Source: Alphaproteobacteria bacterium
GTDB taxonomy: Bacteria > Pseudomonadota > Alphaproteobacteria > Micavibrionales > Micavibrionaceae
Reading direction: 5' to 3'
DNA: 64,000 nt
Assembly: GCA_030426925.1 (NCBI GenBank)
Contig: JAUHXT010000003.1
Location: forward strand, 1-64,000
A program made the translations under genes and the position numbers. Positions 9,182-59,375 of this stretch are shown in pieces (positions within the stretch are counted from its first letter, which is position 1; each line of letters begins with the position of its first letter). The notes beneath the pieces were generated by a model. That model searched no databases. It saw only the letters and a program-made list of their open reading frames with translations, and was not told where the DNA came from.

Positions 9182-9200
9182 AGCAAAAAGGCAGGGTGTG

Positions 9201-33215: not shown

Positions 33216-33288
33216 TTCACAAAGCCGCAGAAAACAGCCGGTTTTCATAGATTGCATCGCGGCAGGTACGCAGGGAGACGTTTGTACG

Positions 33289-37973: not shown

Positions 37974-38650
37974 TGCGTGAGATTGTATTTGATACCGAAA
38001 CAACCGGAATGGAGCCGTCGGAAGGGCATAAGTTACTGGAAATCGGTTGCGTTGAACTGATCAACCACCTGCCGACAGGCCGTACCTATCACCAGTATAT
38101 CAACCCGGAACGCGATGTTCCGGCAGAAGCCGTTGCTGTGCATGGCTTGACGGAAGAACGGCTAAAAAATGAACCGACATTCGGCGAGGTTGTCGGAGAT
38201 TTTCTGGACTTTATCGGTAACGATTCAAAACTGGTTGCACACAACGCATCATTCGACATGAAATTCATCAATGCCGAGCTGAAAACTTTCGGTTTTCCAT
38301 CCGTTGATAAAAAACGCGTGATTGATACGCTTGTCATGGCGCGTGAGAAATTTCCCGGATCACCCGCAAACCTAGATGCCTTGTGCCGCCGTTTTAACAT
38401 TGATAATTCCAACCGTGAACTGCACGGCGCGTTACTTGACTCCGAACTTTTGGCGGAGGTCTATCTGGAATTATTGGGTGGCCGTCAACATGGCCTGAGC
38501 ATAGAAGTCGACAAGCAGTCCGTAGAAATATCACAAACGATTGAACGCCCGTTTCGTGAACCGCGCACATTCAATGTCAGCGAAGAAGAATTGTCCGCAC
38601 ACGAAAAACTTTTGGAAGATCTGTCCGATCCGGTCTGGAAATCCGCTTAG
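37973..38650 (+). CDS. dnaQ: DNA polymerase III epsilon subunit
   Basis: A 225-residue 3'-5' proofreading exonuclease. Exo I is DTETTG (Asp7, Glu9), Exo II HNASFD, and Exo III HGALLDSELLAEVY. The C-terminal 45 residues form the polymerase-binding tail. It is the last conserved gene before the giant-protein operon, whose last stop is two bases away on the opposite strand. No terminator is visible between them. Confidence 0.97.
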   Translation: MREIVFDTETTGMEPSEGHKLLEIGCVELINHLPTGRTYHQYINPERDVPAEAVAVHGLTEERLKNEPTFGEVVGDFLDFIGNDSKLVAHNASFDMKFINAELKTFGFPSVDKKRVIDTLVMAREKFPGSPANLDALCRRFNIDNSNRELHGALLDSELLAEVYLELLGGRQHGLSIEVDKQSVEISQTIERPFREPRTFNVSEEELSAHEKLLEDLSDPVWKSA

Positions 38651-38652
38651 AC

Positions 38653-41600
38653 CTATTGCTGGAAGCAATAAATGGGTTTGGCCGACCAGCAAACAACAAC
38701 GGACGAATTATCCGACCATCTGTTATCATCTTCATAGGTAATGCCTTCATTACCCGATGCTCCGTCCCAACCGTGGGTCCATCCATTACAGTGATTGGGC
38801 AGCGCCGTCCCGTCATCATCTGTCCCTGTCCATGCATCCCAGGGGAAGTCGGTTCCCGCTTCGTCTGTCCTTGGCTCTGCGTCAAGCGTACCATCGGTCA
38901 GATCCATCCAGTCATCGGCAATTTTCGTGCCGATTGTATCATAATAAGCGCCGGTATTCTGGTTAAAGCGCTGTGACGGCGATGTTTCATCGCTCGATAA
39001 CCATGCGTAATAGGTGCCGGGAAGATTTTCTTTATCGGCATGAATCTGGCAGAATTTATCCGCACCCTCAATGCCGCCAAGGTCACCCTCTGTAAAACCG
39101 GACGTAACAAACATGATTTTATCAGCCTCACAGTCCAGCGGGTTCAGGACATTTTCGGGGGTGTTACTGTCGGATGATCCGCCGTTCCCAATTTGTCTAT
39201 GGTTGTTTCTACCCATACATTGCGATGTACCATCGGCAAGAATGAAACACATAGTGTCACTGTGCGAGCCGGCCTCACCCAAGGCAACAACATCTGTCAA
39301 TCCTGGGATAGTATTTGGTGTCGTCATACCTGGAGTAACCAGTCCTAATTCACCTGAATCATCTTCACCCCACGCCAGAACGGTGCCATCGTCTTTTAAT
39401 GCATATACAGCATCTGTGACCGCTGAAATATCAATAATATCGCTGACAGTGGTAACATTTGCTGGCGAATTCTGGTCAGCGCCCGCACCATTACCCAACT
39501 GTTGCTTCGAATTATCGCCCCAGCACCACACCGTGCCATCAGTCTTTAATGCGCAAGTAAAGTCGGTTGTCGACGTATTCCCGCCGGATGTGATGTCAAT
39601 GACGTCTGTAATGGAAACACTCTCTGCGATATCATAGTTTCCGCCGGTAGATCCAATGCCTAGTTCGCCATTAGCATTCTGCCCCCAACACTTCACCGTT
39701 CCGTCCTTTAATACGGCGCAGGTATGTCGGTCGCCCGTCGTGACCTTCACGGCATTCGAAACATTGTAGGCGTAGGTCGGTACGCTCAGGTCTATGGAAG
39801 ATTCGTTGTTTCCAAGTCGTCCATTACCGGATTCACCCCAGCATGCGACACGTCCTTTATTTGTCACGGCGCAGGTATGACCATATCCGCCGTCCAGATT
39901 GACAAATTTTTCGAGCGATACAACCGGTGCCGGGATAGGGTTATAGGCGGTGGCCGCACCTTGCCCCAGCTCACCTTTCGAGTTGATACCCCAACATTTC
40001 ATACTGCCGTCTGATAGAATTGCGCATGCTGTTCTGGGACCAGCCGCGAGGTATTTTGCGCCCTCAACATAAGTTTTTGGGATTATTTGGGGTTTAGGAA
40101 CATAACTATCGCCGGTCGTGCCATCGCCCAGATATCCTTGATAACTTCTACCCCAGCATGCCACGCGGCCATTATCATACAAACCGCAGGTAAATTGCTG
40201 TCCGACTTCGATCTGTATGAAATTATGATCGTGCTCACACAATGGCTCAGAGCCGCCACCTCCGCCTCCGCCACCTCCGCCGGCTGCAAAGGGCTGCCAG
40301 CCGCCGCCATCACAGTATTCGACCGCCGCACCGGTGTAACGCAAGGTTCCTTCATCAGTGCCGCCACAGCTTGAATCATTGCCAAGTTTAACGCCGTTAT
40401 CCGCCGCGCCCCGGCCGCCGACATGCAGTTTACTGTCCGCCGTGGCAACCCCGATACCGACATCACCGTCCGGTTCAACAATAATGTCTTCTCCGGTCGG
40501 GTCGCCCGCCGGGTCTGCCGAAATTTTAAGTTTGGAAGGAACCGTGCCCGCACCGACCGCGCCCACGCTTTCTGCACCGATGGCCAAGACACCGTCCGCA
40601 TCAGTTGCCGTGCCGTCATGTGCGGTAAAGCGGATGTTCCCTAGCTCAGTATTGGATGGAATAGCCGACGGGCTGCCGGACGTTCCGCCATACCGGTCAA
40701 AACGCAACATGGCCGTATCGGCCGGGGTGCTGGAATAGACGCTGGCCTTAAACGATGCGTAGCTTGCGTTGCTTTGTGCAAATTTTGCATAGAGGTCAAC
40801 CGGGCTTCCGCTGATGAAATAGGCGATAGTCTGCAGGCCCGTACCGTCTTCGGCTACACCGCCAATGAAGAAATCCTTTGAAAACAGTAGCAGGGCATTG
40901 CCAGTGGTTTCATCAATACCAAAGAAGCCCGCTGTATCCGTTGCGTTATCGTCATCTGCTAACAATAATCCGTAATAATAATCAGGGTTCCAGGTTCTGG
41001 TATTTGTCGGCCCGGTCGCAAGAATTGCATCGTTATTTGCCCCTGCCGTATTCGCATGAGTACCAAGGCCGCCTTCCGGATCAATAAACATGTGCGTGAC
41101 GGCCGCCGTTCCACCGCCATTTTGTATTTTGAAGTCCAGTTCGGTTCCGGCTGCACCGCGGTTTTTTCCGGACAGGGCAGCGGACAATGTATCACCTCCG
41201 GCAATGCTGGTCGCATCAATCGCGAACCCGATCCCGGCCTCGTGCCCCGCCGTCGCACTATTACGTGTGATCGCAAGAGCGTGGCTGTCGATAGTGTCAC
41301 CGGAATTCCGTTGCTGGCGAATATCATACGCGGATGTTGGTGCCGTCTCACTACCTTGTGTCGGTGTAATGGCCAGTCCCCACGCGTCTGCAAGCCCGCC
41401 ACCACTAACCGAAATAAACGTACTGACATTGATTACTTCTGTCGGAGATTGTTTATCAGACGTCGTACCGTCCCCCTGATACGCGCCATATCCCCAGCAG
41501 TAGGCCTTACCGTCGGCTTTAAGGGAACAATATCCTTCTGCGTCAATAAAGTTCTGGTCTGTGTCGTTTGTCAGGACGGGTGTATTCGAATCGCCGACGC

Positions 41601-44070
41601 TGCCACCGTTGCCTAGATTACCGGCATTATCACTACCCCAGCACCAGATTTCGTTATTCACGGAAATACCGCAGCTGTAAAAATGCTCGATATTTAATTT
41701 TCTGAATTTAACATCGGTATCAACCTTTACCGGAACGCCAGAGTCTACGCCGGTGTTTCCGTCACCAAGCTGTCCGCCGCCATTGTTACCCCAGCACCAG
41801 ACGTCACCGTTTTTGCGCAACCCGCATGCATGCGTGGCGCCGGTACCGACATCAACAAAATCTGTAATATTCGCGACAGGGACAGGAACATCGGAATAAC
41901 TGCCCATAGTTTCATCATCGCCCAGTTGTCCGAAACTGTCATTTCCCCAACAGTAAATAAGGTTGCCGGTGGTAAGACCGCATGTAACCTGCCCGTCATA
42001 TCCGGAATCTATTTTCACAAAATTCGTAATGTTCGACACTTGAACCGGTGACGTTGACCCGGCTGTAGAATTGTTGCCTAATACGCCTAAGTTACCTTTA
42101 CCCCAACACCATACTGTTCCGGAAACATTCAGCCCGCATGTATGGTCCTGTGCTGCTGCTATATCGACAATACCGGTCAGGTCGGTTACCTGAACGTAAT
42201 CATCGCTGCCCAGATGATCGGCGGTATCGCTGTTCCCCAGCCGTCCGTCATCTCCGTGCCCCCAGCACCATACTGTTCCATCGCCTTTCAGGCCGCACCC
42301 GTGACCGATAAGCATGCCTTGGTTCCAGCCCCCGCTGACATTGATAAAGTCTGCTGCTTCACCTGTCGCCAGTGTGGGCGTGCCGCTTGCCTGATTACCC
42401 CATTTGTACATCACGGTACTGATACCTGATGCCTTGATATTCGTATTGGCAACGATACTGCCGCCGCCGCCGCCGCCGCCGCCGCCGGTCATGGTATACA
42501 ACGAGTTAATATCCGCCTGTTCCAGCGCACGGGTATAAATACGCACGTCATCAAAGATACCGTTGGCAAAACGCTGTGAGGTATTTTCACCCGCGCCGAT
42601 ATGCCAGTCGACAGTCAGCGGGGAATCGGCCGGGGCATTAATTGTTCCTGTCGCTGCATTTGTATCTTCCAGCGCGCCATTAAGATAAATTTTTGCCTCC
42701 GCTCCGTCATAGGTTGCTACAATGTGATGAAATCCGGAATCCAGATCAATATTCGGTGTTGTTGCCCCATATGTCCCATTGGCGGTAATCACCAAAAATT
42801 CCGGCCGCCACGTAGTGCCGGAGGTTTTAATAGCATCAAGCCTGATAGTTTCGTTGTTATTACCGTCTTTGGCAGATTCCCACATGATGAGCGTATCGGC
42901 ACCATCTGTCGTATTGACGTCCTGTATATCTACCCAAAGGGAAAGACTGACTTCGCTTCTGCCTGTGAAGTTAAGGGTCGTCGTTGTCGGAATTTCAATT
43001 AGTTCGTCTGTACCGTCCATATCAAGGCCGCCATTAAGGTGCCCGGTAACCCAGTCATCCGTTGTATCGCCGGGATAGTTTGTCAGCGCGCCGTCCGGTC
43101 CGACAGTGGCCGAAGCGGTCGACGTGTTGCCACTCTCATCCAGCTTATAGTGGGCGACAAGCCCGGTGGTTGTGTCTGCCGCCGATCCGCCGGCAACGAT
43201 CGATTCAACTGTACCCGCGTTACACAACACCAGTGATGGCGGGGTGGTCGAAGTATCGAGGAATATCTGCGCCTCCTGCGCGACTGTACAGGTAGTGCCG
43301 GGAGAGCTGGGTAAAACCAGTCCGGCAGTGGATGCGTTGAAGGTCAAAAGACCTGACATGGAAACATCGCTGCGCAGATCCAGGTTCTTGTCTATTTTTA
43401 CGACGGTCTCGGTGCTGCCCGCGTCAATGCCGAACGCCCACATATCGCCCATTGTGCTCGTAGCTTCGGTGTAATCGTAAGATACAATGACATCATCGCT
43501 GCCACTCGGTTTGACAAGACCTTCGGGCGCGGCATCACCATAGGCATAGCATCCTGTTTCAAATACACGGTTCGGCCCGGCAGACACGAGAGCGATATGA
43601 ATATTGCTTGCGTCATCCTGTCCGTTCAACCTGTCATCGGTACCTGTACCCGCATCGTTTTTACCGTTGCTCGCGCTTCCGTTATCCCATGTACAGTACC
43701 CGAACTGCGTACCCCACGGGTCAAGGTCATTAATACCCAGGCTTGCGGGTATAACCCCGCCACCGGTTATGGATCCGGCTTCATATTCCGGTAATTCGAT
43801 AAATTCGGTCGCATCGACATTGTTCAGGGACGCGAAATTTTGTACCGCATCAGCCATGATAAGCTTAGATGCGATTTCCATGCGCAGTTCTGTAATGCTT
43901 TGCTTGTTCAATGAAACCATCGAGGAAACAGGCCCTTTCAACAAAGAAACGGAACCCGCGCCGACAACGCCGACAACGGCCACAGCGGCAAACAGTGTCG
44001 CGAAAACGTTACCGCTTTCGTTTACGATACTGTCTTTGCGTTTCCGCCATGGTTTAAAAAAGCTTTTCAT
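38653..44070 (-). CDS. Giant modular surface protein C (pseudopilin-like head, LamG, RCC1, DUF1554-like)
   Basis: A 1805-residue protein, the third gene of the giant operon. Its basic N-terminus MKSFFKPWRKRKD is followed by NESGNVFATLFAAVAVVGVVG, a single membrane segment, then LKGPVSSM. A head of about 230 residues has DPWGTQFGYC and VSAGPNRVFETGC, resembling the globular part of type II pseudopilins. It is followed by a tail-fibre-like part, a LamG domain (SGLVAHYKLDE type), about six RCC1 blades with paired cysteines (CGL ... WCWG), a nine-Gly linker, another tail-fibre part (DGDVGIGVATADSKLHVGG), about seven more blades and a C-terminal DUF1554-like domain ending IYCFQQ. It starts 12 bases after the previous stop. 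It may be exposed through a secretion machine and may bind a partner cell or matrix; this is inference. Confidence 0.8.
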   Translation of the reverse strand: MKSFFKPWRKRKDSIVNESGNVFATLFAAVAVVGVVGAGSVSLLKGPVSSMVSLNKQSITELRMEIASKLIMADAVQNFASLNNVDATEFIELPEYEAGSITGGGVIPASLGINDLDPWGTQFGYCTWDNGSASNGKNDAGTGTDDRLNGQDDASNIHIALVSAGPNRVFETGCYAYGDAAPEGLVKPSGSDDVIVSYDYTEATSTMGDMWAFGIDAGSTETVVKIDKNLDLRSDVSMSGLLTFNASTAGLVLPSSPGTTCTVAQEAQIFLDTSTTPPSLVLCNAGTVESIVAGGSAADTTTGLVAHYKLDESGNTSTASATVGPDGALTNYPGDTTDDWVTGHLNGGLDMDGTDELIEIPTTTTLNFTGRSEVSLSLWVDIQDVNTTDGADTLIMWESAKDGNNNETIRLDAIKTSGTTWRPEFLVITANGTYGATTPNIDLDSGFHHIVATYDGAEAKIYLNGALEDTNAATGTINAPADSPLTVDWHIGAGENTSQRFANGIFDDVRIYTRALEQADINSLYTMTGGGGGGGGGSIVANTNIKASGISTVMYKWGNQASGTPTLATGEAADFINVSGGWNQGMLIGHGCGLKGDGTVWCWGHGDDGRLGNSDTADHLGSDDYVQVTDLTGIVDIAAAQDHTCGLNVSGTVWCWGKGNLGVLGNNSTAGSTSPVQVSNITNFVKIDSGYDGQVTCGLTTGNLIYCWGNDSFGQLGDDETMGSYSDVPVPVANITDFVDVGTGATHACGLRKNGDVWCWGNNGGGQLGDGNTGVDSGVPVKVDTDVKFRKLNIEHFYSCGISVNNEIWCWGSDNAGNLGNGGSVGDSNTPVLTNDTDQNFIDAEGYCSLKADGKAYCWGYGAYQGDGTTSDKQSPTEVINVSTFISVSGGGLADAWGLAITPTQGSETAPTSAYDIRQQRNSGDTIDSHALAITRNSATAGHEAGIGFAIDATSIAGGDTLSAALSGKNRGAAGTELDFKIQNGGGTAAVTHMFIDPEGGLGTHANTAGANNDAILATGPTNTRTWNPDYYYGLLLADDDNATDTAGFFGIDETTGNALLLFSKDFFIGGVAEDGTGLQTIAYFISGSPVDLYAKFAQSNASYASFKASVYSSTPADTAMLRFDRYGGTSGSPSAIPSNTELGNIRFTAHDGTATDADGVLAIGAESVGAVGAGTVPSKLKISADPAGDPTGEDIIVEPDGDVGIGVATADSKLHVGGRGAADNGVKLGNDSSCGGTDEGTLRYTGAAVEYCDGGGWQPFAAGGGGGGGGGGSEPLCEHDHNFIQIEVGQQFTCGLYDNGRVACWGRSYQGYLGDGTTGDSYVPKPQIIPKTYVEGAKYLAAGPRTACAILSDGSMKCWGINSKGELGQGAATAYNPIPAPVVSLEKFVNLDGGYGHTCAVTNKGRVACWGESGNGRLGNNESSIDLSVPTYAYNVSNAVKVTTGDRHTCAVLKDGTVKCWGQNANGELGIGSTGGNYDIAESVSITDVIDITSGGNTSTTDFTCALKTDGTVWCWGDNSKQQLGNGAGADQNSPANVTTVSDIIDISAVTDAVYALKDDGTVLAWGEDDSGELGLVTPGMTTPNTIPGLTDVVALGEAGSHSDTMCFILADGTSQCMGRNNHRQIGNGGSSDSNTPENVLNPLDCEADKIMFVTSGFTEGDLGGIEGADKFCQIHADKENLPGTYYAWLSSDETSPSQRFNQNTGAYYDTIGTKIADDWMDLTDGTLDAEPRTDEAGTDFPWDAWTGTDDDGTALPNHCNGWTHGWDGASGNEGITYEDDNRWSDNSSVVVCWSAKPIYCFQQ

Positions 44071-44082
44071 ATTTCCTGTTTC

Positions 44083-47000
44083 CTATTGTTCAAAGCAATA
44101 AAGACGCTTTGAATTAAAGCAACCGTGAGTAGTATATACAGTCCATTGACTATTGGTCGTGTAAGTATTCCCGTAAGTAGAGGAATAAGAAAAACCTCCG
44201 TCTGACCAGTTAAGGCAGCTATCCACCGTTGCACGCGTTCCATCTGAATTGGTATTCGTCCATGCCATTGACGTTACACCCCCGCCGACTTCGTTCACGC
44301 CCATAGTTGCATCAAGAGATCCATCGGTAAGATCTGCCCAGTCATCAGCTATTTTCGTTCCGGTCACGCGGTAGTATCCGCCATCGTATTTAGTGAACCG
44401 ATTGGCAGGGGCGCTATCATCGCTATCATCCGAAATCCATGCAAAGAACTTTCCGCCCAGTCCGGCAGCTTCTGCAACTGCCTGGCATTTTGCGTCTGCG
44501 CCTGTAACACCGCCAAGCATCCCGTTATATGATGAGGAAGTAACAAAAGCTATCTTCCCTTCTGTTTGAAAATCAATAGCGTCAGAATGACTGCCAAGGC
44601 TGACATGCGCAGTAACATGTCCGGCCACACTCGCGGATGTCTGCATTTTTATGCTGATACGGTCACCGTTGCTAACGCTGACGATCGTTCCGCTTTCATC
44701 CGAACCGTTTTTGACTATGGTCATCGCGGCGCTATCGGACGAAACGGTCAGGGCACAGCTTCCGGTAACATTTCCAATCATCACGGTATTCGACTGGTAC
44801 ACCGTGCTGGCCGTCAGGTCGTCACGGTCATAAAAATCGAACGGTATAGGTGTGCAGCTGGAAGAAACATCGCCGCCACCGCCGCCACCGCCGCCGATGG
44901 CATTGAAACTGGATCCATCACATAATTCGTATGTGCCGCCGTTATAAGCGAGAGTGCCGCTGTCAACCGCCGTAGAACAGGTTGAATCAGAGCCGATCAG
45001 CACGCCTTCATCGGAGACCAGGCGTCCGCCAAGATGGAATTTGGCTTCGGGTGCAGATTTGCCAACGCCGACATCACCGGCAGAATTAAGCCGCAGCCCT
45101 TCATCTGATGTAGAATCGCCCGTCGCGTCAACGCCGAATATCAGGTCAGCTGGCACATCACCTGCGGACACCGCGCCGTTAACGGCTGCGCGAATAGATG
45201 CGTTTGAACCGCTTGTATTGGCAGTACCACGGAATAAGATTGATCCGATCCTGTCGCCGTCATTCACCGCCCCTGATCCGCCGCGGTTACGAACAAAATC
45301 AAAATTCGATACCACGCCGGCTGTACCATCGTATCGTTCAATCCTGTAACCGGAACTGGTGTCCTCGTCCGAAATTTCAACGTTCGAAAATGCGGTAATT
45401 TGCGGCGTGCTTTCAAACCGTAAATATTCGCTAATAGAGCCGCCGGTTGCGTTGCTGCTTTGAAGCTTCAACATTTTTGAAAATAACAGCATAGTGCTGG
45501 CATTATCTGCCGCGCTATCGCCAAAATATGTCAGCTGGTTCAAAAGCTGGTCATTGCCGGTTACCAAAAGTCCCGGCGTGTAATTGTTATCCCATGCGGG
45601 ATCGTAGTGCTCACCGATCTGTATATTTGTTTCCTGTGTAACACCTGCATTGTTGTCAAGCACAAACCCTGTCTGGTCGGTTGTATTGACCATGCGGGTG
45701 CTAAGGAATGATCCGTCATTCGTCTGGAACAACAAATGCGCACGCGATGGGGCGGCTTGGCGGGACGCTACGACTGCGGCGGACGGGGCGTCCGTCAGGC
45801 TGTAAGTATCTCTCAGGTTAAACGCTATTCCGGCAGAGGAACCGGCAACATCAGTAGCAAGCAACGTCGTCCATCCGGTAGAGCTGACCGTATTCCCTAA
45901 AGTTCCTGTCATCGCGACATTCACCTGTGAAATGTAGTTGGTGAAGTGGTAAAGGTTTGCAATTTCTCCATCAGACAGAGCTCTGTGGTATATACGAATA
46001 TCGTCTAGCTTCCCATCCAAACGAATAGGGTTATTGTACGCACCAATTTTGAGATCTCCGTCACCATCCAATTCTACACCGGTAAAATTCGAGTTTTCGT
46101 TAACCTTTTCACCATTCGCATACAATCTAAGGTCTGCCCCCTCTTTAACAGCCACTATATGATACCAGGTGTTTGCTGATGGTGAAGCGGTCCATTGAAC
46201 ACTAGCTGCGCCACCAGCTGCGTTAACAACATAAAATTGAAATTGTGTAGATCCATTGACGTCAATGCCCCAACTATACCATGGGGCAGCACCATGATTT
46301 TTAAGTAAAAGACTTTTTACAGCGACGACCGCATCAAGCTTTACCCAAAGGCTAACAGTAAAATCGGGCTGAAGGTCAAGTGTATCATCAGAATCTGCAA
46401 CAATTATCTCATGATCGGTTCCATCAAAATCCAGGGCATTGTTAAAAATACCTGCAACGCTGTCGTCAGCAGCGTCCATGCTGCCGCCCATGGTTCCATT
46501 GTTGGCACCTATACCGTCAAAAACAGTTGTACCACTTGTTTCATCCATCCGCCAGTAAGCAACCAGACCGCTTGTGGGCCCAACAATCCCGTAATTGGTA
46601 TTACTGCCTGCGCCTGTTCCCATGCCGAAGCCAGGGTTTGATCCGCCGCCGGATTCGCCACCACCACCACCGCTTTCCCCGGTTGCGGTTCCGGAAATTT
46701 CCTGAAATCCGCCCGCACCAAAATCACAAAGCTCAAGGATTGGGCTTGCGCCCCCCATGTTTCGCCTGACCTGTCCGTTTGTACCGGCCGTACAGGACGG
46801 GAAAGCAATTTCATCCGGTAGCAACAGACCCAGCTGCCCGATCATTTCAATGCGCGTAGGGGCAAAAACATCATTACCGGTAAATTCAACGGCGTCACGC
46901 GCCACAATTTCCGGTGTTGTGCCTTCCACTTCGATACTCCAGATATCCGGACTGTCTACTTTCCAAAGGGACGGAAGCTCCTGCGCCGCTTCTGCGTATG

Positions 47001-47613
47001 AATAAACAACATAAATATCGTCGCCGCCCGGTTCAAAGAGCGGATTATCAGCTTCGCCGTCTGCCGGCGTTGTATCAACATAATCACGGCAGGTTGAATC
47101 AAACGCGCCGTTTGGCCCGGCTGAAATAACGGCCACGGTCGGATAATCCCGCTTGTTCGTACCGGTCAGAAGATTGTACGAATCACAGCCCTTATCATCC
47201 GTAACTGTTTCCTTGTCTGTCACGACTGATCCATGATCCCACGCACAGTACCCAAGCTGCGTTCCCCATGTGTCACGTTTCATGGATCCGATTTCATGCG
47301 GGACAAATCCCCCGCCGGTGGGTGGTGTGTCGGCATGCGTGCGCCACGGTCGCGGTTCCACCACCCGGTCGGAGTCGCAGTCGCCGCCGCCTGTCCAGTT
47401 TTCCGCATCCAGCAGTACCATTTTAGCGGCCGTATAAATGTTGCCTTCGGTCATGGTATTCTGATTGACATCGGACATGGTAGAGAGCGGACCGCGCATC
47501 AGCACGGTCGCGCTTCCGCCAATTGTTCCAATAACGGCGACAGCAGCGAACAGGGCCAGGAGAACATTCCCTGACTCTTTACCTTTGTTTATATGTTGCC
47601 GTTTATCGTTCAT
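44083..47613 (-). CDS. Giant modular surface protein B (pseudopilin-like head, LamG, DUF1554-like)
   Basis: A 1176-residue protein, the middle gene. The N-terminus KESGNVLLALFAAVAVIGT and then LMRGPLSTM gives the same membrane segment as A and C. The head has DTWGTQLGYCAWDHG. One LamG domain (VAYWRMDETSGT, ending DDIRIYHRALSDGEI) follows a Gly/Ser linker. There are no RCC1 blades. The tail-fibre-like part (AGDVGVGKSAPEAKFHLGG) and a DUF1554-like end (LYCFEQ) are present. It is the simplest of the three and may define the minimal architecture. The spacing of 12 bases on each side shows a single operon. Confidence 0.8.
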   Translation of the reverse strand: MNDKRQHINKGKESGNVLLALFAAVAVIGTIGGSATVLMRGPLSTMSDVNQNTMTEGNIYTAAKMVLLDAENWTGGGDCDSDRVVEPRPWRTHADTPPTGGGFVPHEIGSMKRDTWGTQLGYCAWDHGSVVTDKETVTDDKGCDSYNLLTGTNKRDYPTVAVISAGPNGAFDSTCRDYVDTTPADGEADNPLFEPGGDDIYVVYSYAEAAQELPSLWKVDSPDIWSIEVEGTTPEIVARDAVEFTGNDVFAPTRIEMIGQLGLLLPDEIAFPSCTAGTNGQVRRNMGGASPILELCDFGAGGFQEISGTATGESGGGGGESGGGSNPGFGMGTGAGSNTNYGIVGPTSGLVAYWRMDETSGTTVFDGIGANNGTMGGSMDAADDSVAGIFNNALDFDGTDHEIIVADSDDTLDLQPDFTVSLWVKLDAVVAVKSLLLKNHGAAPWYSWGIDVNGSTQFQFYVVNAAGGAASVQWTASPSANTWYHIVAVKEGADLRLYANGEKVNENSNFTGVELDGDGDLKIGAYNNPIRLDGKLDDIRIYHRALSDGEIANLYHFTNYISQVNVAMTGTLGNTVSSTGWTTLLATDVAGSSAGIAFNLRDTYSLTDAPSAAVVASRQAAPSRAHLLFQTNDGSFLSTRMVNTTDQTGFVLDNNAGVTQETNIQIGEHYDPAWDNNYTPGLLVTGNDQLLNQLTYFGDSAADNASTMLLFSKMLKLQSSNATGGSISEYLRFESTPQITAFSNVEISDEDTSSGYRIERYDGTAGVVSNFDFVRNRGGSGAVNDGDRIGSILFRGTANTSGSNASIRAAVNGAVSAGDVPADLIFGVDATGDSTSDEGLRLNSAGDVGVGKSAPEAKFHLGGRLVSDEGVLIGSDSTCSTAVDSGTLAYNGGTYELCDGSSFNAIGGGGGGGGDVSSSCTPIPFDFYDRDDLTASTVYQSNTVMIGNVTGSCALTVSSDSAAMTIVKNGSDESGTIVSVSNGDRISIKMQTSASVAGHVTAHVSLGSHSDAIDFQTEGKIAFVTSSSYNGMLGGVTGADAKCQAVAEAAGLGGKFFAWISDDSDDSAPANRFTKYDGGYYRVTGTKIADDWADLTDGSLDATMGVNEVGGGVTSMAWTNTNSDGTRATVDSCLNWSDGGFSYSSTYGNTYTTNSQWTVYTTHGCFNSKRLYCFEQ

Positions 47614-47625
47614 ATAGTCTCTTTC

Positions 47626-50600
47626 TTATTGCTCGAAACAGTACAGTGTTTTTTGGTTTATACAGGGTTGGGTTGTAATATTTGTCCACCGTCCGTCTAA
47701 GGCCCAGTTATCACCATAAGTGGATGAAATAGCAAAATTATTGTCAGTCCAATTATTGCAATTATCGGAGCTGGCAGGCGTTCCGTCTGCATTAGTATTT
47801 GTCCAGGCTGACCAACCAAGAGATCCGCCTGTCTCCGTCAGGTTGATTTGTGCATCGATAGACGCGTCAGTAAGATCGCTCCAGTCATCGGCAATTTTTG
47901 TAGAACCGTTGCTTAAGACATATTGGTAGTTCCAGTGTGAAAATCTTGCTGCCGGATATCCATCAATAGAATCAGAAATCCATGCTTTATAGGTGCCGCC
48001 GAGAGATTCCGCATCAGCTGCAGCCTGACATATCGAATCTGCTGCCGTTATGCCCCCAAGATTGCCCGCCATAGTATTATCTGATGTAATAAATACAATT
48101 TTACGGTCTGTAGTCGTAGTTTGTGTTGTTTGCTTGTCACCAAGTGATACATATGTTGTATAGCTGCTGCCGACACTGCCCGGACTTTCAATCTCCAGAT
48201 AGACTTTGTCGCCGTTTTCTACGTCAACGAAACTGCCGCTTTGTGCGACTGTGTTCAGGTAAATTGTTACGGTCGGGCTTTCAGATGCAACAGACAGTCT
48301 GCAGGTGCCGTCTACACCAGTGATTTCAATTTCATCCGTGGTAAGATCTGCGCTTGTCGATGAGGTGTATAAATCAGCAAAAACAACATCGCCAGGGTGG
48401 CATGAAGTGGAAAAATTCTCCTCTGGATTGCGTATAATGGCAAAACCGCCGTCATTGGTAACAGTGAAATCATCGGCGGATGTTTCCAGCAAAACTTTCG
48501 TCGGGGTATTGACATCGGTAGGGACATTGCCGTCCCCAAGCTGCCCGGCATAGTTGTCACCCCAGCAATAAAGAACATTGGTAACTGTCATGCCGCACAT
48601 TGTTCCGTAGGCCCCTTCAATTTTTTTCCATTTATGACCGCCTGATACCAAAGTGCCTGCAGCAGGCTGTGGGTTATTGAGAGTATTGCCGCCATTGCCC
48701 ATTTCACCGCTATCACCCCGGCCCCAACAATGGGCATCGCCCGTGCCAGTAATTCCGCAATAAGTATGTGCTCCCCCGATATCGACGAATGTATAGCCTC
48801 CAGAAACCTGAACCGGGCTTGCTTGGTCTGTTGATGTTCCTGATCCGTTACCAAGCTGTCCGGCATTGTCAGCTCCCCAGCACCATGCTTCACCGTTAGT
48901 TTTCAAACCGCAGGTTGACGCAAGTGGATTAATTCCACCAGCCAGTATTTTTTTCCATTTGTGGCTGCCGGTCACCAGGACAGGGGAACTGGAGAAATCT
49001 GCCAGTCCGCCGCCATTACCCATTTCACCGTCTATTTCTGTTCCCCAGCAATAACCATCACCGTCTTTTGTAACGCCGCAAACGACTGTATTCCCGGCAG
49101 ATAAACTCAGCCATTTATGGCCACCGACAACCATTTCTGTCGGTTCGTCTCTGTCAGTTGTCGTGCCATCGCCCAGTTTTCCGGCACCGGTTCCGTTATT
49201 ATCGCCCCAGCAATAGGCATCATCATCAAGGGTAATGCCGCAGGTAACATTGGCCGCTGTGGTAACATTTTTCCATTTATAACCCCCGGCAACCAGCGTT
49301 GGTATGTCTTTATCACCCGTACTGTTATCGCCCAGTTCCCCGTCATTGTTTCGGCCCCAACAATACATATCTCCGTTCGCAACGATCCCGCAGGTATGTT
49401 CATAAGCCCCGCTTATCTTGATCCAGTCGTAATGTCCGTAAACAAGTTTCGGCACATCCTGGTTTGTTGCGTCTGAATCGTTGCCTAACTGATTATAATT
49501 ATCGACCCCCCATCCTACGGCAAGAGACACCTTGGAATAATCAGGGTGTGTGAGGGCCAGCGCCGTATCATTTCCGGGCGCAATAAAAGAAAAACGTAAA
49601 TCTGAAGAAACTTCCTGCGGGGTTGTCGCAGTGTCATCTGTTGCGCCATCGCCACGTTCACCGGATCCGCCTTGTCCCCAGCAATAGGCCTTTCCTTCCG
49701 TACTAAGGCCACAGTTGGTGCCCTGACCTGCTTTGACCTGCGCCCATTTGATACCTGCACCCATTGGGGTGGGCCAGGCTCTTGCAGGGATCACGACAGT
49801 ACCGCCACCGCCAGTACCCGTTGAAGTAGTTCCCCAACACAAAAGAGTATTTTGTGTCGTCACGCCACATACGTTACGGTTAGCAGAAATATGACTCCAC
49901 GTAATCCCGACATTCAGTTTTTGCGGTGTATTCTGGTTGCCGCTTGTTGTGCCGTTACCTAATGCTCCTTCGCTCGCGCGTCCCCAGCAGTACCCGTCGC
50001 CATCGGTTGTAACACCGCAGGAAATTTCTTCACCGGTTGAAATATGTCGCCATGTATATCCGCCGCTGACAGGTTGTGGCGTGTTCTGGTTTGAAAAGGC
50101 GCCGTTACCGAGCTGTCCTCTCGTTCCCCATCCCCAGCAATATCCTGCCCCTGCCGTTGTCACACCACAGGTTGTGCTTCTGCCCATTGAAACAGATGCC
50201 CATTTATGGCCGCCGCTGACAATACTGGGGGTCGGATTGTTCGTATCGCTGCCGTCACCCATTTCTCCAGTGGTGCCCTGTCCCCAGCAATACATATCGC
50301 CCGCACTGTCAATCGCACACCCATTGAGATAACCCAAAGCAAAGTTTACCCACCTTGCGTTATTTTGCTGAGGAACTTCTATGGGCCTGTACACATTGAC
50401 AGACCAGTTGGATACGTTATTCCCCAGTCTGTAGTTACTTTGAGCTCCATAAATCCATATACGCCCTTCGTCTGTTAAATATGCCGCACCATCTGTTTCT
50501 ACATCAATCTTTGTTATGCCATAGGCATTGGCTGTCATAACGGGGACGTTAGATGTGGCTTCGGACTCTGGATACATTCCTATGGCCCCGCCACTGTTTT

Positions 50601-53600: not shown

Positions 53601-56600
53601 CACTCGCAACATGACAATTAGTTCCAGTATCTGGCGCTGAAGCCGCATCGGTCAAAGCCCCGGTTTCTGTGAATGTGCCAGCCGTCCCGAGATTTTCATG
53701 CCAGTCTGCGGTAACGCCGGAAAAATAAAGGTCCGGCGCATTGCCTGTGGGGTAATTCCCATTGGCGCCCAGATAGGCCGGATTGCCGGAAGAGTTGAGG
53801 AATTTTTTTCTGTTTTCTGCAACCGATAGATCAATATAGGTTCCAAAATCTAGCCAGAAATCCGCCATATCGCCGGAGAATTTACAGCAAAGGCTTACGG
53901 CATCTCCTATGGCTTCTGCCGACCCCGAAAAGTCCATCGTTTCAGCTGTATTATATGTAGCGACGTTGTTAATAGCAGAGGCCCCGTCTATATATACGTG
54001 TCTTTTTAAAGAATCTGATAAATCAAAACTAAACATGACATGGTGCCAGTCGGTATCGGTAATAGGATCTGATTCAAGATTGAGCACGGTAACATTGGAG
54101 GAATTCTGTGCTAAAAAGGAAATTCTGTCATTAGCCGCTAAAAAATCTATATCGACACGTTTTAAGTCGCCCGGATCCCTTCTATCATATATAACATCCA
54201 AAACTCCTGTAGCGGCACGCTTGATCCAGAAACTGCCAGACCATTTTGTCTCAGATGTTGAACCGCTAGAAGAGTTATTAATTAAATAATCGCCTGTACC
54301 GTCAAAAGTTACGGCATTCGGCGTATAGGCGGGGCAAACGCCTTCCGGGCAGTTTTCACCGGTTGTGGCGTCGGACGAGGAATCCGTGACCGTACCTGTT
54401 TCGGTAAATCCGCCGCCTGATCCTTTATTGGTGTGCCAGTCCGCGGCTGCACCGCTCATGAAGATGAGGGGTGTTGTTCCGGTCGGTGTGCTGCCATCGT
54501 CGCCCAAGTCAACACCGCCATAATTATAAAATTTCTGCCTGTTTTCGGGATTCGATAAATCGATATACGTGTTTACATCCACCCAGATATCGGCGAGCGA
54601 TCCGGTAAATGCGCCGCCGCCGCCAACCAGAGATCCGACGGCATATGACGCCGCGGTAAAATCAATATTGTCATTGGTATAGGTTACAGGGCTCCAGTTT
54701 GCTTCCTGTCCGTCAATATACATGTGACGCTTGTTTGAATCGGTCAGGTCGAAACTGACCATGAAATGATGCCAGTTTGTATCGGTATAAGTATCCGTGG
54801 TGCGCAGGCTGGCGATAACGGTGCCGCCGCTGTTTTCGGCCATAACCTGGAACCGGTCGGAAGAATCAAGACGAATTCTTATGGCGCTGCCGGAACTGGC
54901 AACCAGCGTTTCGTCGACGCCGGACGTCGTCCGCTTGAACCACCCGGCGACGGTCATGGTTTTTCCATCGCTTCCGGGATCGATGGAGTTTGTAGACAGA
55001 TACGTACTACCGTTAAAATCGACGCCGTTAGGCGTTGCCGCCTGACAATAGCCTCCTGTTTCGCTGTCGCCACTGCCACTGTCGCCACCACCGGGGATTC
55101 CGATCAGCGCCGTGGTATGGCTGTCCAGTGCATCAATCTGAGCAAATTTCTTGCTGGTATTAACGAGCGTTGGCGCTACCTGGTTGCTGGAACCAGCGCC
55201 ATCCCCGAGCGTCTCGCTGACATTGTCCTCACCCCAGCAATAGGCGGTACCATCGGTCGTCAGGCCGCATGAATGAAAGTTCCCCACTGTGATGGCAACA
55301 AAATCCGTTATGTCCGCCACCTGTGTCGGTGTTGTCTGATCGCCTGTAATGCCTGCCCCGTTCCCTAGCTGCCCGTCAGTATCATCGCCCCAGCACCAGG
55401 CAGTGCCATCGGCCTTTACGCCACAGGCATGATCCTGCCCGACGCTGACGTCTACCCATGGGCCGGACTCGGAAATAGCATTCGGTACTAGATTTGCGGA
55501 GGTTGCCCCATCCCCAAGCTTACCGTTGGCGCCGTTACCCCAGCAGTAAATTTCGTTATCGGCCTTAATACCGCATTGAGAATAATTACCCAATGCAACT
55601 TTAATCCAGGTCCCGCCACCGCTAATCAGGCCCGGCGTATTAAGAACAGTGGTGGTGTCGTTATTCCCGTTCCTTCCCTCACCCGGCATACCCCAGCAAT
55701 AGCCTGTGCCGTCTGATGCAATGCCGCAACTGTTTTCATACCCTGCTTCAATGTGCTGCCATAAATGGCCGCCGGTCACGAGGGCGGGGCCCGTTTCTTC
55801 GTTTGTACTGTTGGTGCCGTTACCGACTTTTCCGTTTGAATTAAAGCCCCAGCAATACCCTGCTCCCGATGTCGTCACGCCGCAGACAAAGTCTTCACCG
55901 GCACTAATTTGCGCCCATGTGTAACCGCCGGTAACTTTGACTGGCACGTCCTGGTTTCCGGTAGTCGCGCCGCCATCGCCGAGCTTCCCTGCGGATCTGT
56001 TCCCCCAGCACCATGCGTCACCGGCACTGTCGATACCACAGGCGTGATATTTTCCTGAAGAGACATAAACAAAATCTGAAATATCCGAAACATAAACGGG
56101 AGACGCCTGGTCTGATGTACCTGCACCTTCACCAATCTTCTCGTAATCCCCTTCACCCCACGCCATGGCCTGCGCCGGTTGGACGGCAACATTGCCCCCC
56201 GTATAATAATTATACAGGCTGTTAATTTCTGTTGCGCTCAGTGCCCGGTGATACACGCGCATATCATCCATAACACCATCGTAATAACGGTTGAATGGCG
56301 AGGATTGGCAGGTGTCTTCGTTACCGATAGCACCAGATGAACTGGTTGAATCTGTTGTTGCTGTTGCGGCATGGGAGAACGCACCGGTCGTTCCTACCGG
56401 TTCCCCGTTAATATAAATAGATGCAGAATCATTCGCGTAGTCACTGACAGTCACAATATGATACCAGGTATCCGCCGCCAACGTTGGAATCGATTCAATC
56501 GCCTGCCATGCACCGCCATCAGGCGCACGGCCGCCTAAGCCTATTATATCTGTCAATGTAAATTCTGCCGTCAGGCGTGAATTTTCTGTCGCGCCGTTTT

Positions 56601-58650
56601 CGGCAATCGCAAACAAAACATAGCGGTTCCCGGCGACAGAGGGCAGGACTTCCGGCTTTATCCAGAATGATAATGTCACTGCGCCTACATTTTGCGCAAG
56701 GTCATTGGCGGCGGGTAACAAAATACAATCATTCATCCCGTCAAAATCAAACGCCGTTCCGTCGATGCCTTCAACCGAATTGACTGTCGCATTACCGTAA
56801 AATGTAGCGTTATAAGATCCGACAGAATCAACGACCGTGGTCGTGCCTGTATCATCCATCTTCCAGTGTGCGACCAGCCCGTCTGTAACATCGGATCCGC
56901 CGCTGCCGCCGCCGCCGCTGCCACTCGGGCAAACGCCGGTTGTTGATGTACTGGCATCCGTTAACGCGCCCGTTTCTGTAAATCCGCCACCCGTACCTTT
57001 GTTGGTATGCCATGTCGCCGTGTCGCCGGATAAAAAGATGTCCGGCGCGCTGCCTGTCGGCAGGCTGCCATCATCACCAAGAAAAACAGCCGAACCTGAT
57101 TTATAGAATTTATCCCTGTTGGCCGGGTCGGACAAATCAATATAAGTGCCGAAATCAACCCAGAAGTCCGCGACATCGCCGATCACATCACTGCCTCCCC
57201 AATCAGAGTTTCCAACATGGAGAGTCGTAGTCGTAAAGTCCATGTCCTCATTTGTATAGGTCATAACCTGTTTGACATCGACCCCGTCGATATAAAGGTG
57301 TCTTTTGTTACTGTCTGTCAGGTCAACCGACCACATGGCATGGTGCCAGTCTCCGTCATCCTGGTTTGTAGTGGTTGCCTTGATCCGCATGACGTCGGTT
57401 CCGGCAGAGTTTTCAGCATCGATAGTAAAAATGCTGTTATTGGCATTGTCACTAATGTAAACGCTCAATTCGCCCGCGCCGTTATCCGTATCAAGAAACT
57501 CTATGTAATCCGCCGTGTCGGATATACGGAACCACAAGCTGCCCGTCCATAATTTACTGTCACTGACACCGGCTAAACTTCCAACGCTCAGTTCATCGTC
57601 GGCCGTAAATTCAACTGAGTTTGGAGTATAACCCGTACATTCACCGCCACCACCACCGCCGACACCGACATCGCCGCCGATTTGCGTCCACACGCCGCCG
57701 GTACAGATTTCCAGCGTGTCCGGATCTTCCGCCGTGTTGACGCGCAATTGTTTGTCATTCAGGCCGCCATCGACACACGCCCCCGTATCGGCGTTGGTCG
57801 CCGGGTTTGATTCGCGCGGCAGCATCAACCCGCCTGCGGACAGGTCAAGAAGGCCGGTAGGCTGTCCGCTCTCACCGATTTGTACCTGGCTGCCGGACAA
57901 TTCAACGCTTTGTTCCATTGCAACGGTTGCAGATCCTTGCGCGCCGGATTCCGCATCTTTCAATTTCCACTTGGATGATGTGGCAACAGACGCTTCACCG
58001 TAATTAAATGTCATTGCTATATCGTCATTGCCGCGCTGGACCAGTTCCGTATCAGGATCACCATCAGTATTGGCGTCGGCAAAATCATTACAGGTCGTGT
58101 TAAAGGTCCGGTCCGGCCCTGCTGATATAACGGCAAACACCGTCTGCCTGCGCACCAATGGGCTGCCGCCGCCGCTGGGGTCTGCGCCTGCGAGCCTGTT
58201 TTGCGCACCGCCGCCGCATCCTACATCATCAATGGCGGTTCCATGGTCCCAGACACAATAACCGTATTGAGTGCCCCACGGGTCGGTTGTATTGGATGAC
58301 CGGATATTGGCAGGCAGCAATCCTCCGCCGGTAGGACCGGTACCGACAGTCCATTCTGCGGGTTCAACAATGCCATCCTTGTCACAGTCCTGATCGGCCA
58401 TGTCGGATACGCTTAAGGAAACCAGCTGCATGTTGGAGATAATTTCGGCTTCCGCTTCGGCCTTTTGGCTGACTTCGGCCATCGTTTTCATGGGCCCGCG
58501 CATGATGCTGGTCGCAGTCACGCCGATAGCGCCGACCATAACGACAGCACCAAACATGGCGAAAAAGACATTCCCGGACTGGGATGCCCCTGGTTTTTTG
58601 CTGGCTTTTTGGCGCTGATTCGCGCCTGTTATACTCAAAACCTTAATCAT
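47626..58650 (-). CDS. Giant modular surface protein A (pseudopilin-like head, LamG x5, RCC1 arrays, DUF1554-like)
   Basis: A 3674-residue protein, first gene of the operon. I chose the ATG at 58650, with AAGGGG upstream; the frame opens 14 codons earlier without support. Membrane segment: residues 27-48 (SGNVFFAMFGAVVMVGAIG). Head: residues to about 230, with DPWGTQYGYC at 123. From about 338 five LamG-like domains are interspersed; four are a variant type (YTPN-V-F at the start, FWVDFGTYIDLSDP and WHTNKG at the end) and one is standard (VAHWKMDD). Three RCC1 arrays have about 6, 7 and 11 blades with a Cys pair each. Tail-fibre-like segments separate them. The C-terminus is a DUF1554-like domain. 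Codon use does not stand out from the neighbourhood. Function unknown; adhesion is a guess. Confidence 0.82.
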   Translation of the reverse strand: MIKVLSITGANQRQKASKKPGASQSGNVFFAMFGAVVMVGAIGVTATSIMRGPMKTMAEVSQKAEAEAEIISNMQLVSLSVSDMADQDCDKDGIVEPAEWTVGTGPTGGGLLPANIRSSNTTDPWGTQYGYCVWDHGTAIDDVGCGGGAQNRLAGADPSGGGSPLVRRQTVFAVISAGPDRTFNTTCNDFADANTDGDPDTELVQRGNDDIAMTFNYGEASVATSSKWKLKDAESGAQGSATVAMEQSVELSGSQVQIGESGQPTGLLDLSAGGLMLPRESNPATNADTGACVDGGLNDKQLRVNTAEDPDTLEICTGGVWTQIGGDVGVGGGGGGECTGYTPNSVEFTADDELSVGSLAGVSDSKLWTGSLWFRISDTADYIEFLDTDNGAGELSVYISDNANNSIFTIDAENSAGTDVMRIKATTTNQDDGDWHHAMWSVDLTDSNKRHLYIDGVDVKQVMTYTNEDMDFTTTTLHVGNSDWGGSDVIGDVADFWVDFGTYIDLSDPANRDKFYKSGSAVFLGDDGSLPTGSAPDIFLSGDTATWHTNKGTGGGFTETGALTDASTSTTGVCPSGSGGGGSGGSDVTDGLVAHWKMDDTGTTTVVDSVGSYNATFYGNATVNSVEGIDGTAFDFDGMNDCILLPAANDLAQNVGAVTLSFWIKPEVLPSVAGNRYVLFAIAENGATENSRLTAEFTLTDIIGLGGRAPDGGAWQAIESIPTLAADTWYHIVTVSDYANDSASIYINGEPVGTTGAFSHAATATTDSTSSSGAIGNEDTCQSSPFNRYYDGVMDDMRVYHRALSATEINSLYNYYTGGNVAVQPAQAMAWGEGDYEKIGEGAGTSDQASPVYVSDISDFVYVSSGKYHACGIDSAGDAWCWGNRSAGKLGDGGATTGNQDVPVKVTGGYTWAQISAGEDFVCGVTTSGAGYCWGFNSNGKVGNGTNSTNEETGPALVTGGHLWQHIEAGYENSCGIASDGTGYCWGMPGEGRNGNNDTTTVLNTPGLISGGGTWIKVALGNYSQCGIKADNEIYCWGNGANGKLGDGATSANLVPNAISESGPWVDVSVGQDHACGVKADGTAWCWGDDTDGQLGNGAGITGDQTTPTQVADITDFVAITVGNFHSCGLTTDGTAYCWGEDNVSETLGDGAGSSNQVAPTLVNTSKKFAQIDALDSHTTALIGIPGGGDSGSGDSETGGYCQAATPNGVDFNGSTYLSTNSIDPGSDGKTMTVAGWFKRTTSGVDETLVASSGSAIRIRLDSSDRFQVMAENSGGTVIASLRTTDTYTDTNWHHFMVSFDLTDSNKRHMYIDGQEANWSPVTYTNDNIDFTAASYAVGSLVGGGGAFTGSLADIWVDVNTYIDLSNPENRQKFYNYGGVDLGDDGSTPTGTTPLIFMSGAAADWHTNKGSGGGFTETGTVTDSSSDATTGENCPEGVCPAYTPNAVTFDGTGDYLINNSSSGSTSETKWSGSFWIKRAATGVLDVIYDRRDPGDLKRVDIDFLAANDRISFLAQNSSNVTVLNLESDPITDTDWHHVMFSFDLSDSLKRHVYIDGASAINNVATYNTAETMDFSGSAEAIGDAVSLCCKFSGDMADFWLDFGTYIDLSVAENRKKFLNSSGNPAYLGANGNYPTGNAPDLYFSGVTADWHENLGTAGTFTETGALTDAASAPDTGTNCHVASAAGVAIVEDFTANQTVTQDMVSGSALESYGTILSRESDAYGAEAGIGFLVKGTPADDDEAGAGISAIKSGLTGQTGLAFKTQNADGDYQARAFLDHDGDFGLAVAAPSDVKAKLQIRDIVGATWPSTYNRGLLVNGGLDTDIGGLNQITQEFLFLSVGYNHACGIKEDGTAWCWGSDNTGQLGNTGGNQTSPDQVDDTDSWISISSEANHTCGIKTDGTAWCWGDDWIGQQGNGAGSHQYSPGQVSDAGPWTAISAGATFTCGIKTDGTAWCWGDDGAGQLGNGATSGTQQTPVQVNDAGPWASISAGSVHACGIKTDGTAWCWGDDSQLTLGNGATTGTQQTPVQVNDAGPWASISAGYTHTCGIKKDGTAWCWGEDSQGQIGNDTDGGQESPDQVNDAGPWASISALYQMTCGIKTDGTAWCWGNEDNGQLGNGATSGDQINPVQVNDAGPWKGIKAGHGFACGTKTDGTVWCWGDDSQGAIGNGGTTGTQESPDQVNDSGPWKTEAITTAGSYTPNAVHFDGANDYMGVDETYFNGPITSKMGTVSFWFKLDAATDTRFINTTSADFDIRYRSGTQEIQIRGNNSGGTEILNVTTSNLNGDTTGWHHFMASWDMSDNNKLHVYLDGVSDSSFSTYTDAAVNYIDAAQNLGVGASSTGLEKLNGGLADYWVDFGTYIDLSDPANRQKFYYDGGPVYLGSDGSLPTGSTPDIYFTGNTTDWHTNKGEGTGFIEFGELTDFSVSPPEGIRTSGAVAAMSYLGLEGSNDAASTVLYGNNLVIADTDVDGSAITEMMRLDASGYTIFSTTFVDIINQDMSTESQSSNALLSGQIILERGRGTESSPTDVADGDILGAITFSGRNSSGITSEANAAIYAKVNGAPSGANIPADIHFSTDTGGNALSSSDMVLRSDGDLGIGTTTVDGKVQVAGRTTFDKGLRIGDDTCIDAGDDGVLRVNSGNLEYCEGAAWTSLMGSGGGGGGSGDFVSLNTDGTRMVWAWGKNSGGAIGMYPESEATSNVPVMTANAYGITKIDVETDGAAYLTDEGRIWIYGAQSNYRLGNNVSNWSVNVYRPIEVPQQNNARWVNFALGYLNGCAIDSAGDMYCWGQGTTGEMGDGSDTNNPTPSIVSGGHKWASVSMGRSTTCGVTTAGAGYCWGWGTRGQLGNGAFSNQNTPQPVSGGYTWRHISTGEEISCGVTTDGDGYCWGRASEGALGNGTTSGNQNTPQKLNVGITWSHISANRNVCGVTTQNTLLCWGTTSTGTGGGGTVVIPARAWPTPMGAGIKWAQVKAGQGTNCGLSTEGKAYCWGQGGSGERGDGATDDTATTPQEVSSDLRFSFIAPGNDTALALTHPDYSKVSLAVGWGVDNYNQLGNDSDATNQDVPKLVYGHYDWIKISGAYEHTCGIVANGDMYCWGRNNDGELGDNSTGDKDIPTLVAGGYKWKNVTTAANVTCGITLDDDAYCWGDNNGTGAGKLGDGTTTDRDEPTEMVVGGHKWLSLSAGNTVVCGVTKDGDGYCWGTEIDGEMGNGGGLADFSSSPVLVTGSHKWKKILAGGINPLASTCGLKTNGEAWCWGADNAGQLGNGSGTSTDQASPVQVSGGYTFVDIGGAHTYCGITGTGDAHCWGRGDSGEMGNGGNTLNNPQPAAGTLVSGGHKWKKIEGAYGTMCGMTVTNVLYCWGDNYAGQLGDGNVPTDVNTPTKVLLETSADDFTVTNDGGFAIIRNPEENFSTSCHPGDVVFADLYTSSTSADLTTDEIEITGVDGTCRLSVASESPTVTIYLNTVAQSGSFVDVENGDKVYLEIESPGSVGSSYTTYVSLGDKQTTQTTTTDRKIVFITSDNTMAGNLGGITAADSICQAAADAESLGGTYKAWISDSIDGYPAARFSHWNYQYVLSNGSTKIADDWSDLTDASIDAQINLTETGGSLGWSAWTNTNADGTPASSDNCNNWTDNNFAISSTYGDNWALDGRWTNITTQPCINQKTLYCFEQ
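52085..53130 (-). repeat. Seven near-identical RCC1 units of about 150 bp
   Basis: Within protein A, a common block (CAGCACCA, with 52178, 52331, 52481, 52634, 52787, 52937 and 53084 as marks) repeats at 147-153-base spacing. Each unit codes for about 50 residues with CGIKTDGTAWCWG. Neighbouring units are much closer to each other than to the blades in the other two arrays, which indicates recent expansion or gene conversion. Confidence 0.85.
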
Positions 58651-58844: not shown

Positions 58845-59375
58845 TTAGGCCGACTTCTGTGATTCCTCGACATCCTCGTTAATATCCCCTTCCGGCGCAT
58901 TGCCGAACCGGTTGAAATACATTTGCCGGAAATTAACGGGACTAAGCAAAAGCGGCGGAAATCCTCCGCTTTGGACGGTGTCGGAAATAATCTGCCGCGC
59001 ATACGGGAACATATAGTGTGGTGTCTGCATCAACAGCAGGGGATGGTGCTTTTCTTCCGGCACATTGTTGAGGGATACGGTCGCCGCGTACACCAGTTCT
59101 ATAATAAAAACAGTGCCTTGTGGGCGTTCTGCCTTAACCTTCAGGACCAGCTGTACTTCATACAAATTCTCGATTTGCTCGTGATTAATGCGGGCGGCCT
59201 CTATATTAATGTCGACATCCATTTTTGGATTGTCCTGTCCGGGGAACAAGGCTTGCGGCGCGTTCGGGCTTTCGAAGGACATGTCCTTGATGTACTGGCT
59301 GTGAATCACAAGGGGAAGACCGGGAGCCTTTTGCGGGTTGTCTTCGGTTTCACCTGTGGCTGACGTATCACTCAT
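58845..59375 (-). CDS. secB: Protein-export chaperone SecB
   Basis: A 176-residue SecB that keeps preproteins unfolded and hands them to SecA. Family segments HSQYIKDMSFESPNAP, LVYAATVSLNNVPEE and PYARQIISDTVQSGGFPPLLL are all present. An N-terminal and a C-terminal acidic extension are normal in this class. It lies between fxsA and the giant operon on the same strand. Confidence 0.96.
   Translation of the reverse strand: MSDTSATGETEDNPQKAPGLPLVIHSQYIKDMSFESPNAPQALFPGQDNPKMDVDINIEAARINHEQIENLYEVQLVLKVKAERPQGTVFIIELVYAATVSLNNVPEEKHHPLLLMQTPHYMFPYARQIISDTVQSGGFPPLLLSPVNFRQMYFNRFGNAPEGDINEDVEESQKSA

Follow-up and report, generated by a model that had tools for sequence, protein, structure and literature searches.

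Type IV pilins in which a binding module is grafted onto an N-terminal pilin module, such as PilB and PilC of S. sanguinis, have been surveyed by means of IPR012902, and the largest modular pilin in that published survey comprises 860 residues (PMC8179133). The minor pilins PilV, TcpB and CofB of type IVb pili are described as sitting at the tip and carrying a large C-terminal module, with PilV setting partner specificity by exchange of its end (PMC9045228, PMC9565799). Chimeric fibres and pilus tips are known from predators as well, namely the MAT fibres of Bdellovibrio, which lack a PDB homologue for their N-terminal domain and are described in a paper whose main text makes no mention of pilins (PMC10769870), and the Kil Tad pilus of Myxococcus, a predator pilus whose interchangeable minor-pilin tips expose variable domains (PMC12075869).

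The window, i.e. the whole stretch of 64,000 nucleotides that was analyzed, belongs to contig C99 of a 2.14 Mb genome assembled in 111 contigs. Three giant genes are found on its minus strand, separated by gaps of 12 bases each (47614-47625 and 44071-44082). Giant 1 (P0003, 47626..58692), the first in the operon, encodes 3,688 aa when read from a TTG codon and 3,674 aa if translation begins with the ATG at 58650, and is made up of a pilin head, five LamG domains, several RCC1 arrays and an endostatin-type C-terminus. Giant 2 (P0002, 44083..47613; 1,176 aa) has a pilin head, one LamG domain, a fibre-like middle and an endostatin-type C-terminus, and giant 3 (P0001, 38653..44070; 1,805 aa), which is last in the operon and adjoins dnaQ, has a pilin head, one LamG domain, two RCC1 arrays and the same type of C-terminus. 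Each giant contains one hydrophobic segment near its N-terminus. A preliminary description of this DNA had regarded the three ORFs as one unit, and both the ORFs and the 12-base gaps were recovered here. Elsewhere in the window, a partial repeat protein, right-handed beta-helix-like by eye, runs off the end (62627-64000), and two overlapping, paralogue-like ORFs in different frames (31932-33215 and 32947-34344) are located upstream of a PPSR-like gene.

Pfam searches agreed with the earlier assignment of LamG to all three proteins and of RCC1 to two of them. LamG_3 was matched in P0001 (E 1e-20), P0002 (E 4e-27) and, over five stretches, P0003 (E 1.5e-61), while RCC1 matches occurred in P0001 and P0003 only. 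In giant 3, the LamG_3 domain (residues 353-522; 42505..43014, minus strand as for all giant features below) is followed by a first RCC1 propeller with Cys-paired blades ending in CWG (residues 590-892; 41395..42303), a middle region with no Pfam match (residues 905-1262; 40285..41358) and a second RCC1 propeller (about residues 1275-1643; 39142..40248). A stretch homologous to the middle region was found in 20 head-bearing ORFs of relatives. The LamG_3 domain of giant 2 spans residues 398-552 (45958..46422), and the top-scoring of the five in giant 1 lies at 56221..56733, with the top-scoring RCC1 propeller of that protein at residues 842-1194 (55111..56169). Matches in PHROGs were to RCC1 for P0001 and P0003 and to the LamG region only for P0002; no tail-fibre family was hit by name in any of the three giants, and the "phage-fibre-like" look of the middle regions is thus an impression by eye. 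NCBIfam TafC matches fall in the LamG region, far below the cut-off. LamG, RCC1 and the endostatin-type domain are, as in modular pilins, extra modules that are not specific to pilus biology.

The C-terminal domains (47629..48120 in giant 1, 44086..44571 in giant 2 and 38656..39123 in giant 3) align mutually and all close in YCF(E/Q)Q. The DUF1554 profile scored 27.0 bits in P0001, against a cut-off of 27.5, and 20.2 in P0002, with no match in P0003, whose domain was assigned by alignment; a positional relative (L036) reached 47.9 bits. The model of the giant 2 domain (pLDDT 90) matched endostatin 1dy1 in Foldseek (E 1.7e-9) and 1dy0 in VIA (Z 20.2, 2.1 A over 157 of 162 residues), the best non-endostatin match in VIA having a Z of 5.4. 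The shared DUF1554-like ends of the preliminary description can consequently be specified as an endostatin-type fold. This fold of DUF1554 is already known, since the family has been tied to endostatin in the Len adhesins of Leptospira (PMC2387172), whereas no description of such a domain closing giant pilins was found in the literature consulted.

The heads are located at 57880..58650 (giant 1), 46909..47613 (giant 2) and 43366..44070 (giant 3), and align over about 235 residues with about 33% identity. That of giant 1 comprises a basic leader, SG followed by NVFF, a long helix and a DPWGTQYGYC core. The motifs that had been put forward as common to all three, SGNV, (M/L)(R/K)GP and D(P/T)WGTQxGYC, are all borne out by the alignment, which adds SAGP...DD. 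The head was found in 15 of 19 near relatives (E down to 1e-71), and these motifs are therefore not due to chance. A search of the genome itself gave no heads besides the three in the window. In an alignment of 48 homologues, the Gly at position -1 of the presumed cleavage site is invariant (48/48), position +1 is Asn or Ser within N/S-V-F-F, a Gly is found at +14 in 46 of the 48, and a hydrophobic tract reaches from +2 to +20, as in the leaders of modular pilins. In the globular part, D, W, YC, GG and DD are invariant. Glu5 occurs in none of the 48 mature heads. The head is seldom met outside the order, with weak to moderate scores in four genomes of two families among the 385 genomes drawn from the class. 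In three Burkholderiales proteins (L064, L065 and L068), the globular part of the head is preceded by a signal-peptide-like N-terminus and the pilin helix is lacking.

An AlphaFold2 model of the giant 3 head (pLDDT 80.8) consists of a single helix of 56 residues (22-77) followed by a beta-sheet, so that the predicted architecture, an N-terminal helix of about 50 residues on a beta-sheet head, would correspond to that of a modular pilin. When 66 chains were aligned to this model with VIA-align, 14 reached Z>=2, all of them with Z>=5, and the eight aligning entries that were listed all belong to the type IV pilins or GspG-type pseudopilins. The best match was EpsG (3gn9; Z 6.6, 2.0 A over 81 residues) and PulG (5o2y) scored Z 6.4, values of 6-7 being modest. 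Foldseek alone returned nothing significant for the head model (best E 2.3), and the claim about the fold therefore rests on the specificity of the alignments, the helix and independent sequence matches to EpsG and the GspG profile. Of these, EpsG chain 3gn9 is the one PDB sequence that the head profile matched at E<=10, albeit weakly (E 0.44), and the globular head aligns with the GspG profile at the DPWG block (hhalign 64%, E 6.6e-5; controls 0.1%). A pseudopilin-like structure of the head, as first suspected from the sequence, is thereby supported by a model whose listed structural matches are all pilins or pseudopilins. The proposed resemblance to GspG holds for the fold and the DPWG block and fails for membership in GspG or the type II secretion system. 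Such membership of the giants was rejected, given that the T2SSG profile has no match in the genome, that neither it nor the N_methyl profile of Pfam matches any of the 48 heads, and that Glu5 is missing.

Weak matches of the head profile elsewhere in the order revealed a family of proteins of 230-300 aa, here called SGN proteins, which have their leader and membrane segment in common with the heads; outside the window, the genome contains nine matches of full length and a partial one. Two of them, the SGN pilins, stand at the end of a locus on contig C98, after a secretin, an ASH-domain protein, a T2SSE ATPase, a T2SSF protein, a 330-aa protein and a 179-aa protein, in this order. Pfam matches recorded for the SGN locus had E values of 3e-14 for Secretin, 1.6e-77 for T2SSE, 8.6e-7 for T2SSF and 2.7e-19 for Peptidase_A24. 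The gene order is kept in L134, L136, L137 and the fetched part of L135, and L138 retains the machine genes with one extra SGN gene and no detected match to the 179-aa protein. In L134, L137 and L138, the genes on the far side of the secretin include those for a response regulator and a divergent prepilin peptidase. The matching regulator and peptidase of the present genome are adjacent on contig C93, a contig separate from that of the SGN locus, and it is likely that C93 and C98 adjoin. The giants have no chromosomal linkage to the SGN locus, and the genome has two other filament systems, a PilD-type type IV pilus (C84) and a Tad pilus (C27). The ASH-domain protein (in L128 at 8916-10493, Pfam 1.7e-16) belongs to the constant part of the SGN locus and adjoins the ATPase. 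In L110, overlapping small SGN genes (966-1898 and 1846-2724) have C-termini that look DUF1566-like by eye and appear to be small modular SGN pilins, and the neighbour of a small SGN gene of genome G018 (L102, 1553-2407) looks by eye like the gene of an IcmO/TraD-like ATPase, a hint of a conjugation-type link.

The leader and membrane segment of the heads align with those of the SGN pilins (hhalign 98%, E 1.3e-13) and not with those of GspG (1.9%), and the small SGN pilins that were inspected also lack Glu5, which is uncommon among bacterial type IV systems. No alignment was obtained between the globular parts of heads and SGN pilins (hhalign 1.3%). The idea that the small SGN proteins are homologous to the heads over their full length was accordingly discarded, as only the leader and membrane segment match and an earlier value of 97.4% would overstate the relationship.

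Co-occurrence was assessed in 142 genomes of the order, with the 330-aa protein as marker of the SGN locus. The marker was found in 104 genomes and heads, strictly scored, in 90, the nine weakest "head" genomes (best E about 1e-6 to 1e-3) being counted as head-less by a cut-off that was chosen after seeing the data; where fetched, such weak matches were small SGN proteins. Both were present in 84 genomes, the head only in six, the marker only in 20 and neither in 32 (Fisher p=1.6e-12), and all six head-only assemblies are incomplete or fragmented. At the level of genera, which controls for relatedness in part, the corresponding numbers were 31, 0, 5 and 10 (p=7e-7), and none of 20,000 permutations of genera within families gave as high a value as that observed. 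The PilD N-domain (PF06750), used as a control, occurs in 128 of the 142 genomes independently of heads (odds ratio 0.96, p 1), and as a link to the heads this near-ubiquitous domain was set aside as uninformative. The heads do, then, co-occur with pilin-type assembly genes, i.e. the SGN locus, with a prepilin peptidase in relatives, as the pilin reading had predicted.

The giants' address in the chromosome is bordered by a dnaQ-like gene (37973..38650, plus strand) and a secB-like gene (58845..59375, minus strand), and giants sit between dnaQ and secB in several relatives. Two of these (G028 and G030) have three giants in a row as in the window, and the heads of all three genomes form three positional clades (support 0.97-0.997). 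The modules of the first gene differ, however, LamG and RCC1 in the window standing against FG-GAP and LVIVD repeats in G028. A single giant of 5,719 aa occupies the address in L141. Several genomes devoid of giants, e.g. G003, G033, G062 and G122, have dnaQ and secB 24-58 bp apart as judged from the match ends, and in G099 the site is empty, yet heads are found on another contig. Other relatives carry YadA_head and S74 modules, S74 being present in L113, L084, L075 and L041; no S74 was found by Pfam in the three window giants. Some S74-ending giants of relatives also have a C-terminal membrane segment and would need cleavage before release of a filament. At one address, the heads are hence conserved while the display modules are exchanged. 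One giant ORF of 2,739 aa occurs in G055 (L115), a genome of 2.46 Mb in one contig, whereas in G056, a member of the same genus, the giant is broken up into two ORFs, of 462 and 2,375 aa (L139, 11360-12748 and 4216-11343).

We consider it probable that the giants are modular pilins, probably at the tip, of a dedicated type IV filament without Glu5, most likely assembled by the SGN machine. A prepilin peptidase would presumably remove the basic leader, which ends in SG; what remains would be a hydrophobic helix able to pack into a type IV filament and the small GspG-like head, behind which follow 900-3,400 residues of display modules with the endostatin-type domain as their end. Assembly would most likely be carried out by the SGN machine of the same genome, encoded away from the giants and comprising a secretin, an ASH-domain protein, a GspE/PilB-type ATPase, a GspF-like protein, two further components and two small SGN pilins, joined in relatives by the nearby prepilin peptidase; the filament would leave through the secretin. 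Because of their bulk, the giants would probably be placed at or near the filament tip, with the recognition modules exposed to other cells, and the precedents of PilV, CofB and Kil also speak for the tip rather than the shaft. From the general workings of type IV filaments and the parts present, we infer processing, filament insertion, exit through the secretin and display at the tip. The giants may thus act in contact with other cells or recognition of prey, the natural targets in a Micavibrio-like lineage being prey or partner cells. A wider proposal, put forward tentatively, is that an order-wide, Micavibrio-like lineage possesses a dedicated and so far undescribed Glu5-less filament with single giant tips of up to 5,700 residues, whose modules are swapped at one address under fixed heads and so set prey or partner recognition.

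The heads could instead be ordinary signal anchors, and the giants adhesins outside any filament, tethered to the inner membrane and spanning the periplasm or associated with the outer membrane, so that the pilin likeness would reflect only the ancestry of the head. The absence of Glu5, the weak Foldseek result, the Burkholderiales heads without a pilin helix and the second, C-terminal membrane segment of some relatives all fit this; we nevertheless find it unlikely in view of the invariant Gly at the cleavage position, the one continuous pilin-like helix of the model, a leader and membrane segment specifically common to the SGN-locus pilins, and the near absence of giant heads from genomes without the SGN locus.

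Alternatively, the giants might ride the PilD-type pilus or the Tad pilus, both of which the genome has, just as the variable predation tips of Myxococcus ride a Tad pilus (PMC12075869). The independence of heads from the PilD N-domain and a leader resembling that of SGN pilins, not of GspG, make this quite doubtful. A further reading, in which the heads make up the pseudopilus of a secretion system resembling the T2SS that pushes the giants out to be secreted or released instead of kept as stable tips, is suggested by GspG-type pseudopilins being the nearest folds and by S74 self-cleavage in relatives, which would free fibres. In the M. aeruginosavorus genome, furthermore, GspC, G, H and K were reported missing, so that a replacement is conceivable (PMC3189940). 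With T2SSG absent from the present genome, a display module of its own on every giant, unlike a piston, and two small pilins already owned by the SGN locus, we judge a pseudopilus improbable.

The combination of a giant pilin and a separate SGN assembly locus provides definite genes with which to ask how epibiotic predators such as Micavibrio recognize their prey. It also points to a pilin family and a machine missed by the standard N-terminal methylation motif, and such systems may consequently be overlooked elsewhere.

In comparison with known systems, the giants share the pilin module with grafted binding module of the S. sanguinis proteins, where the PilC module is concanavalin-like, as is LamG, and S74 modules are on record too; they extend modular pilins several-fold in size, with 1,176-3,674 residues in the window and 5,719 in a relative against at most 860, and the Pfam motif corresponding to the IPR012902 of that survey has no match in their family (PMC8179133). 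Len adhesins have the same Pfam family, DUF1554, and endostatin fold, but are lipoproteins, whereas the domain here caps a pilin-headed protein (PMC2387172). GspG-type major pseudopilins share the fold, the DPWG block and the SxGxD...DD end with the heads, the giants differing in the lack of Glu5 and of a T2SSG match and in their giant C-terminal additions. MAT fibres are chimeric fibres of a predator and resemble relatives of the giants in having S74, unlike the giants of the window (PMC10769870). PilV, TcpB and CofB, which the giants would resemble as tip minor pilins with a large C-terminal module, are much smaller, and the shufflon swaps ends by site-specific inversion (PMC9045228, PMC9565799). 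The Kil pilus, finally, has interchangeable, variable tips on the pilus of a predator, a feature that the giants would share, but uses Tad machinery and tips of multiple minor pilins, where the giants are single chains accompanied by a GspE/GspF/secretin locus with SGN pilins (PMC12075869).
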